Shown here: positions 6,468 to 10,275 of the stretch, piece after piece | How positions within the stretch are numbered: position 1 is the first letter of the stretch | How the letters are laid out: the number at the start of each line of letters is the position of its first letter | From: an uncultured Lacinutrix sp. | GTDB lineage: Bacteria; Bacteroidota; Bacteroidia; Flavobacteriales; Flavobacteriaceae | NCBI RefSeq assembly: GCF_947500325.1 | Contig: NZ_CANMRQ010000017.1 | Location: forward strand, 1 to 64,000 | Reading direction: 5' to 3' | Length of the DNA stretch: 64,000 bases | Program-made: the position numbers and the translations under genes | Notes under the pieces: model-generated | What the model saw: the letters and a program-made list of their open reading frames with translations, nothing else | Databases searched by the model: none | Told to the model about the DNA's origin: nothing

Positions 6468-6541
6468 GCCGATGTAGCTCAGCTGGCTAGAGCAGCTGAT
6501 TTGTAATCAGCAGGTCGTGGGTTCGAGTCCCTCCATCGGCT
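6468..6541 (+). tRNA. tRNA-Thr, anticodon UGU
   Basis: The acceptor arms GCCGATG and CATCGGC pair perfectly. The anticodon stem GCTGA/TCAGC encloses the loop TTTGTAA, giving anticodon TGT (reads ACA). The D-arm (AGCTCAGCTGG) and the T-arm with GTTCGAGTC are canonical. The discriminator base is T at 6541. The 3' CCA is not encoded. It is a lone tRNA with its own promoter and terminator. Confidence 0.97.
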
Positions 6542-7431: not shown

Positions 7432-8742
7432 CTAACTAGCCGAAGCTAATTCCATTAAAATAGTACAGCCTATTGCTGCAATGGTTCCTACTGCATAACC
7501 AAAAACAGCTAATAAAACACCAACTGTAGCTAAAGATGGGTGAAATGCAGAGGCAACAATAGGAGCAGATGCAGCGCCTCCAACATTAGCTTGACTTCCT
7601 ACAGCTAAAAAGAAATAAGGAGCTTTAATTATTTTTGCAACAAAGATTAGTAAAACAGCGTGAATTGTCATCCAAACGACACCAACAGCAATTAAACCTA
7701 CATTGTCGAAAATAAGTGTTAAATCCATTTTCATACCAATAGAAGCAACTAAAATGTATATAAATACACTTCCAAACTTACTAGCGCCAGCGCCTTCGTA
7801 ATTTTTAGCTTTTGTAAAGGATAATAATATTGCAATAATTGTAGCAATACTAATCATCCAGAAAAACTTAGAACCTAAGAAAGTGAATATGTTTTTTGTA
7901 GTTGGAGATTTTATATTAGAAACAACATCATCAAAAAATGGCGCTAAGAAATCTGCAGATAGATGAGCAATACTCACAGTTCCAAATGCTATAGCAGCTA
8001 TAATCATCATGTCTGTTAATGATGGATTACGTTTTACTTTTTCAGAAAAAGTAGATACTTTGTTTTTTAAATCTTCAATAGATGAAGTATCTGCTTTAAG
8101 CCATTTATTTATTTTGTTTCTTTTACCAATACCTATTAATAAAAGTGCCATCCATACATTTGCAACTACTATATCTACAAATACCATTGCCCCATATCTT
8201 GTTTGATTATAACCGTATATTTCTAGCATTGCCGTTTGGTTTGCTCCACCACCAATCCAACTACCTGCTAATGTAGATAGGCCACGCCATACGGCATCTG
8301 GTCCAGCACCACCAACAGTTTCAGGAGAAAAAATAGATATTAATAATATTGCAATTGGACCACCAATAACGATACCAATAGTTCCAGTAAAAAACATAAC
8401 TAAAGCTTTCCACCCTAAATTAAATACAGCTTTTAAATCTATGCTTAATGTCATTAAAACTAATGCAGCAGGTAATAAATATCTACTCGAAACATAATAT
8501 AGATTTGATTTACCAGTAACTATTTCTCCACTTTCTTTAATAGATTCCCATTCAGGAGCAATAAGCCCTAATGTTGTGAATAGAGCAGGAATCATATAAG
8601 CCATAAACAATCCTGGAACAATCTTATAAAATTTAGGCCAGAACCCTTTTTCTAATGATTCTGTATAAAATATGAATCCTAATGCAAGCATTAGGAAACC
8701 GAAAACTATTGTGTCGTTAGTAAATAAAGGTGTAGTATCCAT
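7432..8742 (-). CDS. DUF819 family integral membrane protein
   Basis: A 436-residue polytopic membrane protein with roughly eleven to twelve hydrophobic segments. Family features visible are GLSTLAGSWIGGGANQTAM near the middle and a closing inverted-repeat-like stretch FFLAVGSQANVGGAASAPI, both glycine/alanine-rich turns typical of transporters with two related halves. DUF819 (YjcL) proteins are probable secondary transporters with unknown substrate. The soluble loop between the halves (about residues 205-240) is charged. The gene is followed closely by a DUF4369 lipoprotein gene, with which it may be cotranscribed. Confidence 0.88.
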   Translation of the reverse strand: MDTTPLFTNDTIVFGFLMLALGFIFYTESLEKGFWPKFYKIVPGLFMAYMIPALFTTLGLIAPEWESIKESGEIVTGKSNLYYVSSRYLLPAALVLMTLSIDLKAVFNLGWKALVMFFTGTIGIVIGGPIAILLISIFSPETVGGAGPDAVWRGLSTLAGSWIGGGANQTAMLEIYGYNQTRYGAMVFVDIVVANVWMALLLIGIGKRNKINKWLKADTSSIEDLKNKVSTFSEKVKRNPSLTDMMIIAAIAFGTVSIAHLSADFLAPFFDDVVSNIKSPTTKNIFTFLGSKFFWMISIATIIAILLSFTKAKNYEGAGASKFGSVFIYILVASIGMKMDLTLIFDNVGLIAVGVVWMTIHAVLLIFVAKIIKAPYFFLAVGSQANVGGAASAPIVASAFHPSLATVGVLLAVFGYAVGTIAAIGCTILMELASAS

Positions 8743-8810
8743 TAGTTAGTGTTTTTATCACTGCAAAATACAGAATTAAAACAGGATAAAAAAGAAGCGG
8801 AAATAAACTT

Positions 8811-8825
8811 TGGCATACTAATTGA
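8811..8825 (+). promoter_or_regulatory. Sigma-54-like -24/-12 promoter of RNA copy 1
   Basis: TGGCAT, five bases, then TTGA: GG at 8812-8813 and the -12 element at 8824-8825. The spacing equals the sigma-54 consensus TGGCAC-N5-TTGC; only the last C is replaced. No TAnnTTTG box occurs at a fitting distance. Confidence 0.55.
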
Positions 8826-8836
8826 AATATATCTAA

Positions 8837-8950
8837 CGTGGATAACTACAACGACTATTTTAGAGTGTGGTTACTTTAAATAAGAGTAGTTATTTATCAT
8901 ATTTTTGGTTGGTTAGTTAGAAAAAGCATTCCTTTTGGACTGCTTTTTCT
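8837..8950 (+). ncRNA. Predicted small RNA, copy 1 of 3
   Basis: The predicted start is 12 bases after the -12 element, and the end is set by a hairpin at 8921-8948 followed by CT. The RNA would be about 114 nt. The outer helix is ATAACTAC (8842-8849) with GTAGTTAT (8886-8893). It encloses the invariant core at 8854-8881, which can fold into an inner hairpin (ATTT-AGAG with CTTTAAAT, one bulged T) exposing the loop TGTGGTTA. A single-stranded G/U-rich tail at 8901-8917 precedes the terminator. The terminator stem has one mismatch in this copy. No target is known. Confidence 0.68.
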
Positions 8951-8991
8951 CATTTATAATGTTTCCTAGTTTTATATAATTAAAATTAGTT

Positions 8992-9006
8992 TGGCACGTA
9001 ATTTGA
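8992..9006 (+). promoter_or_regulatory. Sigma-54-like -24/-12 promoter of RNA copy 2
   Basis: TTGGCACG followed by TAAT and TTGAA: the best of the three matches, differing from the sigma-54 consensus TTGGCACG-N4-TTGCW at one base (A for C at -12). Confidence 0.6.
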
Positions 9007-9017
9007 ATTATAATTAA

Positions 9018-9133
9018 CGTGAATAACTACTAGGACTATTTTAGAGTGTGGTTACTTTAAATTAAGAGTTGTTATTTATCATATTTTTGGTTGGTTAGTA
9101 TGAAAAAGCATTCCTTTTTGGAATGCTTTTTCT
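9018..9133 (+). ncRNA. Predicted small RNA, copy 2 of 3
   Basis: About 116 nt from the predicted start to the end of the terminator. The outer helix is AATAACTAC (9022-9030) with GTTGTTATT (9068-9076), eight of nine positions pairing. The core at 9035-9062 is identical to copy 1, and the tail at 9083-9099 is identical up to TTAGT. The terminator stem GAAAAAGCATTCC/GGAATGCTTTTTC (9102-9132) is perfect with a T5 loop. Confidence 0.68.
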
Positions 9134-9188
9134 ATTACAATGCTAAATATTTCTTAATATATGTATTTAAAAGACTCAAAAATAATTT

Positions 9189-9203
9189 TGGCATGCTAAT
9201 TGT
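9189..9203 (+). promoter_or_regulatory. Sigma-54-like -24/-12 promoter of RNA copy 3
   Basis: TGGCAT, five bases (GCTAA), then TTGT, with the same geometry as the two upstream copies. The -12 dinucleotide is GT instead of GC, so this may be the weakest. Confidence 0.5.
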
Positions 9204-9214
9204 AAAGTGTTATA

Positions 9215-9330
9215 ATGTAATTAATTACGATAACTATTTTAGAGTGTGGTTACTTTAAATTACGAGTATTAATTACATATTTTTGGTTGGTTAGTATGAA
9301 AAAGCATTCCTTTTTTGGAATGCTTTTTCT
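9215..9330 (+). ncRNA. Predicted small RNA, copy 3 of 3
   Basis: About 116 nt. The outer helix has a completely different sequence from copies 1 and 2 yet remains complementary: GTAATTAAT (9217-9225) with ATTAATTAC (9268-9276), nine perfect pairs. The core at 9233-9260 is again identical, and so is the tail at 9277-9296. The terminator at 9298-9329 is a perfect 13-bp stem with a T6 loop. The replaced but still pairing helix is the best evidence that the RNA fold, not a peptide or DNA site, is under selection. Confidence 0.7.
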
Positions 9331-9351
9331 ATTATAATATGTTTTACTTGT

Positions 9352-10275
9352 TTATTTTACAAAACTAGTTATTGATTCTAATAATTCTGGAGACAACTTC
9401 CTTGAGCTTTCATTATAAGATTTAGAATTTTCAAGATCACCACCTTCAATTGGTACTAAAACATGATTCATGTTTTTAATTATTTTTATAGTTGCTTTTG
9501 GAGCTGCTTCTTTTAAAAGTTTGGCTTCGTTTTCACTTACTTGTAAATCTTTAGTTCCATTTATAATTAAAATAGGCATATCTAATTTTTTTAACTCCTC
9601 TTTAGGATTGTAAGACATCCAATTACCTATAAATGGCTGTACCTCTTTATTAAATATAGAGGCTAATGCTGGAGGAAAATCGTTTGTTGTTTTGCCTTTA
9701 GCTAAAATTTTAAAAATACGTTTAGTATCCTCTAAAAACATTGGTGCTGTTTTTTCAACTTGTTCTGTAATAACTTGATCTATAGATTGGCCTGCACCAG
9801 CTAATGAGATGAAGCCATCTGCTTTATTTTTAGAAGCTAAAATACCCACTAAACTACCTTGACTGTGGCCAGCTACATATATCTTATGATACTTATCCTG
9901 AGTTTTAAAATAGTTTATCACTGCAACAGCATCTTCAACAAAGTTATCGAACATGATGTCTTTATCTACTTTATTTTTTCTTATTTGTTTTACAATACGT
10001 TTGTCATATCTAAAAGTGGCAATGTTTTTTTGCGTTAAACCAATAGCTAATTTTTTAAGAGTATTACTCATTAAAAAATTTTGATTACCATCTCTATCCG
10101 TGGGACCAGATCCTGCAATAATGATTACTAAATTTGGTTTTTTATCTATATTAGGTGTAAGGAGTGTACCATCTATTAGTTTATTTATAGCAATATCTTG
10201 CTTATTATAATTTTGTTCTTGCGCAAAAAGTATGCTACCTACAAAAAGAAAAAGAGCAATGAAATTTAGTTTCAT
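9352..10275 (-). CDS. Exported alpha/beta hydrolase
   Basis: A 307-residue protein with a signal peptide (MKLNFIALFLFVGSILFAQ) and an alpha/beta-hydrolase fold. The nucleophile elbow is AGHSQGS, the oxyanion region is AGSGPTDRDGN near residue 55, the acid is probably the Asp in NGTKDLQV and the catalytic His is in KNMNHVL. The GSGPTDRDGN segment is typical of a serine aminopeptidase S33-like group found in Bacteroidota. The substrate is unknown; an esterase or acyl-peptide hydrolase acting in the periplasm is a reasonable inference. The upstream region carries two TATTTCATC direct repeats that may be regulatory. Confidence 0.87.
   Translation of the reverse strand: MKLNFIALFLFVGSILFAQEQNYNKQDIAINKLIDGTLLTPNIDKKPNLVIIIAGSGPTDRDGNQNFLMSNTLKKLAIGLTQKNIATFRYDKRIVKQIRKNKVDKDIMFDNFVEDAVAVINYFKTQDKYHKIYVAGHSQGSLVGILASKNKADGFISLAGAGQSIDQVITEQVEKTAPMFLEDTKRIFKILAKGKTTNDFPPALASIFNKEVQPFIGNWMSYNPKEELKKLDMPILIINGTKDLQVSENEAKLLKEAAPKATIKIIKNMNHVLVPIEGGDLENSKSYNESSRKLSPELLESITSFVK

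Follow-up and report, generated by a model that had tools for sequence, protein, structure and literature searches.

Three direct repeats lie head to tail between two genes of the opposite strand on a contig of an uncultured Lacinutrix sp.; are they sibling small RNA (sRNA) genes, and if so, what would transcribe them and through which part would they act? A sequence-only reading of the window (the whole stretch of DNA analysed, 64,000 nt) had proposed three direct repeats on the strand opposite to both neighbouring genes, each with an upstream TTTGGCA element, a ~115-nt RNA and an intrinsic terminator. The repeats (n = 3, with spacings of 181 and 198 nt), their orientation (8809-9332 on the plus strand, between two minus-strand genes) and a terminator hairpin in every copy held, while the RNA length was corrected to about 116 nt, counted from the predicted start to the end of the terminator. 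Each unit comprises, in order, TTTGGCA(C/T)-N5-TTG, about 12 nt, the predicted start, an outer helix, a core stem-loop, an unpaired CATATTTTTGGTTGGTTAGT and a strong terminator with hairpin arms of 13-14 nt, and a search of the window's own genome returned these three copies alone (Table 1). The interpretation as sibling sRNA genes, each with a promoter and a terminator of its own, is supported by folding, homologues, compensatory change in the outer helix, the lack of a conserved peptide and the lack of an Rfam match, although their transcription is inferred. What the sequence-only reading had missed was that the promoters are of the sigma-54 type, that a G/U-rich tail is conserved and that the same tail occurs in 3'UTRs of mRNAs with sigma-54-type promoters.

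Table 1 Coordinates of the sRNA array and its flanking genes in the window; sRNA starts are predicted from the promoters
Feature	Positions	Strand	Details
Sigma-54-type -24/-12 promoter, copy 1	8810..8824	+	TTGGCATACTAATTG; strict motif
Sigma-54-type promoter, copy 2	8991..9005	+	TTGGCACGTAATTTG; strict motif
Sigma-54-type promoter, copy 3	9188..9202	+	TTGGCATGCTAATTG; strict motif
sRNA copy 1	8837..8952	+	fold z -4.70; model match 139.3 bits
sRNA copy 2	9018..9134	+	fold z -5.30; model match 148.6 bits
sRNA copy 3	9216..9331	+	fold z -5.76; model match 130.7 bits
Core, copy 1 (inner stem, GGUU loop)	8854..8881	+	identical among copies
Core, copy 2	9035..9062	+	identical among copies
Core, copy 3	9233..9260	+	identical among copies
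G/U-rich tail, copy 1	8903..8920	+	TTTTGGTTGGTTAGTTAG; unpaired up to terminator in fold
Tail, copy 2	9085..9099	+	TTTTGGTTGGTTAGT
Tail, copy 3	9281..9295	+	TTTTGGTTGGTTAGT
Intrinsic terminator hairpin, copy 1	8919..8950	+	
Intrinsic terminator hairpin, copy 2	9102..9132	+	
Intrinsic terminator hairpin, copy 3	9298..9329	+	
DUF819 protein, divergent upstream neighbour	7432..8742	-	PF05684, 2e-81; cluster at 39 loci
Alpha/beta hydrolase, convergent downstream neighbour	9352..10275	-	PF12146; cluster at 37 loci

The 28-nt core ACTATTTTAGAGTGTGGTTACTTTAAAT is invariant among the three copies, whereas the outer helix is GGATAACTAC/GTAGTTATTT in copy 1 and GTAATTAATTAC/GTATTAATTAC in copy 3; copy 2 resembles copy 1 but is interrupted (GTTGTTAT). 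The earlier claim of an unchanged core within a swapped, still pairing outer helix thus held, with copy 2 as an interrupted form of the copy-1 type. All three copies fold better than 200 of 200 dinucleotide shuffles (z = -4.7, -5.3 and -5.8). At 63 non-Lacinutrix loci (one unit per locus, arms excised by script, short units and locus L022, which has no core match, omitted), outer helices paired with a mean energy of -6.82 kcal/mol with their own arms versus -4.86 (sd 0.24) when 3' arms were swapped between loci; none of 20,000 permutations reached the own-arm value, and the outcome was similar over all 78 loci. We caution that this contrast is weakened by badly cut arms (8-nt 5' arms) and strengthened by common descent. 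Formal covariation support was modest: among 37 aligned units of one subtype, 91.3% of cells were paired versus 90.4% after shuffling (reached by 10 of 500 shuffles) and two-sided change was seen in 8 pairs versus 4.1 (reached by 7 of 500). The percentage paired in this alignment exceeded that in slid registers; the number of two-sided-change cells was higher at slide +1 (29 versus 15). RNAalifold on 38 units supported the inner stem and the terminator but gave no outer helix; the arms of the latter were out of register there. That the outer helix is exchanged between genera while still pairing is shown by permutation and only modestly by the formal count, and it supports the earlier claim of selection on an RNA fold.

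Conservation due to a peptide, which would have refuted an RNA gene, was checked over 118 distinct units, and no conserved open reading frame (ORF) was found among them. The longest complete ATG ORF had a median length of 4 aa, with none at all in 46 units and with 0, 0 and 1 aa in the three window copies; ORFs of 21-31 aa occurred in 14 of the 118 units, and some of these are alike because the underlying bases are conserved.

Two checks suggested by the sequence-only reading, a covariance-model search of Flavobacteriaceae and an Rfam scan, were both run. Covariance model R1, made from 33 units with the promoter included (copy 1 itself among them, which qualifies its score in Table 1), matched 183 of 397 Flavobacteriaceae genomes at E <= 0.01 and left 214 without a match; among good genomes the figure was 170 of 330, and among genera 125 of 237. 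Most matching genomes had one match, while the Lacinutrix genomes (n = 13) carried 2-6 copies and other multi-copy genomes include G229 and G103 (3 each) and G379 and G386 (4 each). A DNA search of 60 genomes gave hits in 13/13 Lacinutrix, 8/24 other genomes of the family and 1/23 genomes of other families, but two of the eight (G020 and G024) proved to be tails in mRNA 3'UTRs and the single hit outside the family (G047) covered 31 nt only. In an order-level draw, R1 matched 6 of 246 genomes, all six from the same family, with the share of other families unresolved; the rows listed for genus g146, which had many genomes in this draw, included no match. The strict promoter was present in 113 of the 118 distinct units, GGTTRGTTAGT in 115 and the loop GGTTAC in 104, counts that are conditioned on a model containing the promoter and these same features. 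Gene clusters recurring next to the units at 81 loci were DUF4369 (49), DUF819 (39), hydrolase (37), AlkB-like (37), dipeptidase-like (35) and Band-7-like (16), where DUF4369 and DUF819 correspond to genes of the window and names without a Pfam row are our own reading; because these neighbours repeat across loci, the sRNA sites are taken to derive largely from one ancestral locus. The units thus have a promoter, a structured body, a terminator, covariation and no conserved ORF, which meets general bacterial criteria for trans-acting sRNAs with transcription inferred, and we consider it very likely, from sequence alone, that they constitute a real sRNA family of Flavobacteriaceae.

No catalogued family accounts for the array. 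Against Rfam 15 at the gathering threshold the window yielded a tRNA alone and no sRNA family, and a permissive scan around the array (E up to 10) gave 13 matches, the best of which was on the other strand and under its cut-off, with no Qrr among them. The tRNA gene, at 6468-6541, is the sole Rfam match at that threshold in the window. Letter strings of the tail and core, searched in the open-access literature, retrieved papers on neural stem cells and pneumococcal detection. Among the top open-access results for sigma-54 or RpoN together with flavobacterial or Bacteroidota sRNAs, the nearest was a study of Flavobacterium psychrophilum (PMC9723704); a sigma-54 regulon survey (PMC12316311) contains none of the terms small RNA, noncoding and ncRNA, and a transcription study of F. 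columnare mentions sRNA (PMC5395568). The family is therefore uncatalogued in Rfam and in the open-access literature searched, subscription journals and preprints being outside the scope of the search.

The TTTGGCA element of the sequence-only reading also held, and we reinterpret it as the -24 part of a sigma-54-type promoter, which in the array has the form TTTGGCAY-N5-TTG. The sigma-54 consensus is TGGCAC-N5-TTGC, and motif SM4 of F. psychrophilum shows typical -24/-12 elements (PMC9723704). Strict TTGGCAYNNNNNTTG (TTGGCAYN5TTG) matches the window three times, precisely at the three copies, where 0.34 matches are expected, and 1 of 100 shuffles reached three; with one mismatch allowed there were 12 matches versus 9.1 expected, so only the strict motif is informative. 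The window's own genome encodes one RpoN, but co-occurrence is uninformative because RpoN was present in all 120 family genomes tested. Strict sigma-54-like sites in the own genome numbered 34, versus 13 for the reversed pattern. Among the 30 that were opened, one lies 64 nt upstream of a DnaK-like ORF, one 51 nt before a lipoprotein ORF, another 51 nt before an exported-protein ORF, one 85 nt before a second exported protein and one 66 nt before a thioredoxin-like ORF (five loci, L347, L338, L355, L356 and L358; names being our reading of the ORFs); many others had no ORF start nearby. The chaperone and exported-protein sites agree with the sigma-54 regulon mapped in F. psychrophilum (PMC9723704). 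While the promoter motif itself is shown, sigma-54 dependence in the cell is inferred from motif evidence only, and on this basis we regard the array as very likely sigma-54-driven.

The array tail UUUUUGGUUGGUUAG is G/U-rich, unpaired in the fold as far as the terminator and at least as conserved across genera as the core. It can be read as a quasi-repeat, UUGG-UUGG-UUAG-UUAG, and its GGUU recurs in the core loop. With up to one mismatch, TTTTGGTTRGTTAGTTRG gave 186 matches in 85 of 120 family genomes, versus 28 for the reversed pattern. Seventy tail loci from 35 genomes were opened (30 as returned and 40 hand-chosen in listing order, known sRNA sites excluded), and 45 of these loci, picked by tail alone, had a strict sigma-54-type promoter: by script, 9 were stand-alone with the promoter within 150 nt, and 36 were in 3'UTRs, each belonging to an ORF with such a promoter at its start region. 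The 25 without a promoter by the script rule comprised 8 in 3'UTRs, 3 cut off at an edge and 14 others; one of the 8 (L264) does have a promoter, but its ORF start is too far upstream for the rule. Exact-match tails were linked to a sigma-54-type promoter in 18 of 19 cases, the remaining one being an edge-cut ORF, compared with 5 of 79 control ORFs at the same loci and, across 864 kb of the own genome, just 1 of 670 ORFs. That single control ORF is an orthologue of the tail-bearing lipoprotein, with 54-76% identity to eight of its members.

We caution against counting the 36 cases as independent events, because the ORFs fall into exactly two BLAST clusters of 18 each and thus represent two gene families kept over many genera. 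One encodes a lipoprotein of about 310 aa and the other an exported protein of about 400 aa with an Arg/Ser/Asn-rich end; the members scanned against Pfam gave no match save a weak one to DUF1827 (L229), and the AlphaFold2 model of the lipoprotein was weak (mean pLDDT 60.3). Some 50 nt typically separate the promoter from the ATG, and the tail follows the stop codon at a distance of 1-100 nt, directly before the terminator (for example at L226, L233, L240, L256 and L259). The shortest arrangement was found at L237 (minus strand, from about 1477 of the reversed locus), where a sigma-54-type promoter lies 24 nt before a tail and terminator, so that the transcript would be little more than these two elements; it is possibly a minimal sRNA, and the gene downstream of it itself ends with the tail. 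In the own genome, a decayed tail (TAGTTAGTTAA) is all that the lipoprotein 3'UTR retains, and the gene for the exported protein has none in the 100 nt examined, which leaves the array as the sole intact tail carrier among the sites seen. The link between tail and promoter is thus shown, and the tail probably marks a sigma-54 regulon.

Searches by complementarity did not identify targets. In 670 start regions of the own genome, 73 reached -12 kcal/mol against the tail, versus 75.7 (sd 19.6) for 30 shuffled tails, and the same scan of mid-gene windows gave 88; there was no enrichment of tail complements at these starts. When one mismatch was tolerated, CTAACCAACCAAAA had 183 matches across the 13 Lacinutrix genomes versus 114 for the reversed control; we estimate that the arrays themselves account for about 39 of the 183 (without individual sites for G012 and G008). 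By script rule, 13 of the 20 complement sites opened were within an open frame. Three exact sites (L195-L197) were rejected as targets, being same-sense tails in 3'UTRs. The one exact 14-nt tail complement within a leader (G000:C14:54778-54791; L159 1501), which separates a short ORF from a lipoprotein gene, was also rejected as a conserved target, since the gene is accessory (4/13 Lacinutrix) and the site is absent upstream in L252; the stretches viewed for L253 and L254 were not the leader of that lipoprotein gene. Within this scope (670 genes of one genome and 20 opened sites), no conserved complementary target with the tail as seed was found.

The explanation we consider best is that each unit gives a sigma-54-dependent RNA in which a long stem-loop would present the GGUU loop, followed by the unpaired G/U-rich tail and the terminator, and that the same tail and terminator end the mRNAs of two exported-protein families with sigma-54-type promoters. 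The shared tail and promoter type suggest that the sRNAs and these 3'UTRs are the non-coding arm of one sigma-54 (chaperone/envelope) regulon. Once a sigma-54 activator is triggered, the sRNAs would act in trans through the tail, probably together with fragments processed from the 3'UTRs; the tail may pair with C/A-rich leaders of mRNAs, a mode like that of FopS or GcvB, probably with a helper protein, and the tandem copies would raise the dose. GcvB is known to act through a G/U-rich region. Several results speak against this reading: 214 family genomes gave no match even though RpoN was present in all 120 tested, 25 of the 70 tail loci have no promoter by the script rule, the tail-bearing mRNAs come from only two gene families, neither of these mRNAs keeps an intact tail in the own genome, and neither enriched complements nor a common activator site emerged. 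That the tail is the working part of the sRNA is itself inferred, as are the stress conditions (envelope or protein), the processing, the trans action and the targets, and we hold this overall reading no more firmly than its negation; the same balance applies to action by pairing taken on its own.

The closest competitor is a decoy, in which an RNA-binding protein (an RRM protein, for example) would bind the tail and GGUU loop, use the same 3' element to control the sigma-54 mRNAs and be titrated by the sRNA array. In its favour, the marked mRNAs carry the motif in the same sense and not as a complement, the motif is a quasi-repeat whose GGUU returns in the loop (GGTTAC in 104 of 118 units), tail complements are not enriched at start regions and several tandem copies would suit a titration dose. 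However, the minimal unit at L237 lacks the long stem-loop and G/U-rich quasi-repeats fit pairing seeds too; with no binding data, we lean slightly against a decoy and slightly towards a pairing seed, mostly from precedent. An unlikely alternative is that the tail is a cis element only (for termination, 3'-end processing or stability) and that the sRNA works otherwise, by its stem-loop core. The tail does lie directly before the terminator hairpin in the opened sRNA units and the 36 3'UTRs, and the core loop is conserved too, but the 186 matches in 120 genomes (versus 28 reversed) mean that only a few transcripts per genome bear the tail, which argues that it is no general terminator part, and in one genome a promoter only 24 nt away from the tail leaves no room for any other RNA body.

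That the units are no functional sRNA at all, and represent instead a peptide gene, a neighbour's leader or a spreading repeat, is very unlikely. The near-identity of the tandem copies and the short ORFs in 14 of 118 units speak for such readings, yet no ORF is conserved, both neighbours lie on the other strand, each unit is closed by a terminator, pairing survives the replacement of the outer helix, and the units occupy mostly one locus across genera with only three copies in the own genome; on this evidence all three were rejected.

The likeness to Qrr siblings drawn by the sequence-only reading is apt, and more so than it stated: qrr genes have sigma-54 promoters, and the strict motif, on motif evidence only, meets that property at all three copies. 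The Qrr sRNAs of Vibrio likewise comprise several siblings with sigma-54 promoters, their own terminators and a conserved core, whereas the present family is flavobacterial, in tandem at one locus, shares its tail with mRNA 3'UTRs and has no match to Qrr or any other described Rfam sRNA family. Qrr sRNAs are further defined by LuxO activation and a role in quorum sensing, whereas none of the five strong sigma-54 activators of the own genome is assigned to the array. Within Bacteroidota, FopS/GibS of Bacteroides thetaiotaomicron form a paralogous sRNA family of about 65-70 nt with canonical sigma-ABfr promoters (PMC11697453). They resemble the array in being paralogous, in having an unpaired seed before the terminator and one 3'UTR-derived member, and in the induction of the FopS side by membrane stress (bile salts), and the layout of FopS, a tail-like seed followed by a terminator, is that of the minimal unit at L237 (PMC11697453). 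The array differs in its sigma-54-type promoters, long 5' stem-loop and other tail; membership of the FopS family, defined by an R1 seed and a sigma-ABfr promoter, is not met, given the promoter type and the absence of an Rfam match to a family whose structure is said to be deposited there (PMC11697453), although the R1 seed was not compared letter by letter; binding of an RRM protein such as RbpB is a further criterion for that family. Rfp36 of F. psychrophilum, a putative regulatory RNA with a sigma-54 promoter that is co-expressed with exported proteins (PMC9723704), shares the flavobacterial host, the promoter type and the exported-protein link, with sequence homology uncompared. CsrB/RsmZ and the sigma-54-driven CrcZ are known to titrate an RNA-binding protein. 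The CrcZ/CsrB titrators and RybB/CpxQ (sigma-E/Cpx) are alike in forming the non-coding arm of a stress regulon and in their repeated short motifs or 3'UTR-derived seeds (CpxQ), but differ in sigma factor (except CrcZ), phylum, sequence and structure.

A bolder reading, which we offer tentatively and would not favour on present evidence, is of a regulon marked at both ends, by a sigma-54 promoter at the 5' end and a (UURG)4 element at the 3' end of stand-alone sRNAs and exported-protein mRNAs alike, in which each marked transcript would also release, or compete as, the same regulatory RNA signal. Such a shared 3' tag, if it acts as proposed, would allow a single sigma factor, by simple means, to endow all its transcripts with one regulatory output. 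Regulation by sRNAs is little known in Flavobacteriaceae. This family is widespread and easily recognised, its class of activator is named (sigma-54), its tail is conserved and the mRNAs that bear the same mark are listed, so that the non-coding part of the sigma-54 response in flavobacteria can be tested directly.

Candidate activators are present in the own genome, where 14 activator-domain matches were found; 5 of them are strong, and their open frames span 387-492 aa. Two sigma-54 activators, 485-486 aa long (L060 946-2403 and L061 910-2370), have an unrecognised N-terminal part. A third, of 387 aa (L057 1081-2244), is of the response-regulator type and by eye apparently lacks a C-terminal DNA-binding domain, in which case an upstream site might not be needed. 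The upstream stretches examined showed no activator site common to the units. In Lacinutrix arrays (L041, L042, L049 and others) a near-palindrome, ATGTGAAATGTTTCATAAAA, occurs about 40-60 nt before the promoter of later copies; its recurrence is confined to that genus and that position and is indistinct in the window, and it is possibly an activator site. A further recurrent palindrome, resembling TGATATTAAAATGATATCATAAAGATAT, lies between the sRNA and the divergent Band-7-like gene, at the start of the latter, at L022, L052, L103, L116 and other loci.
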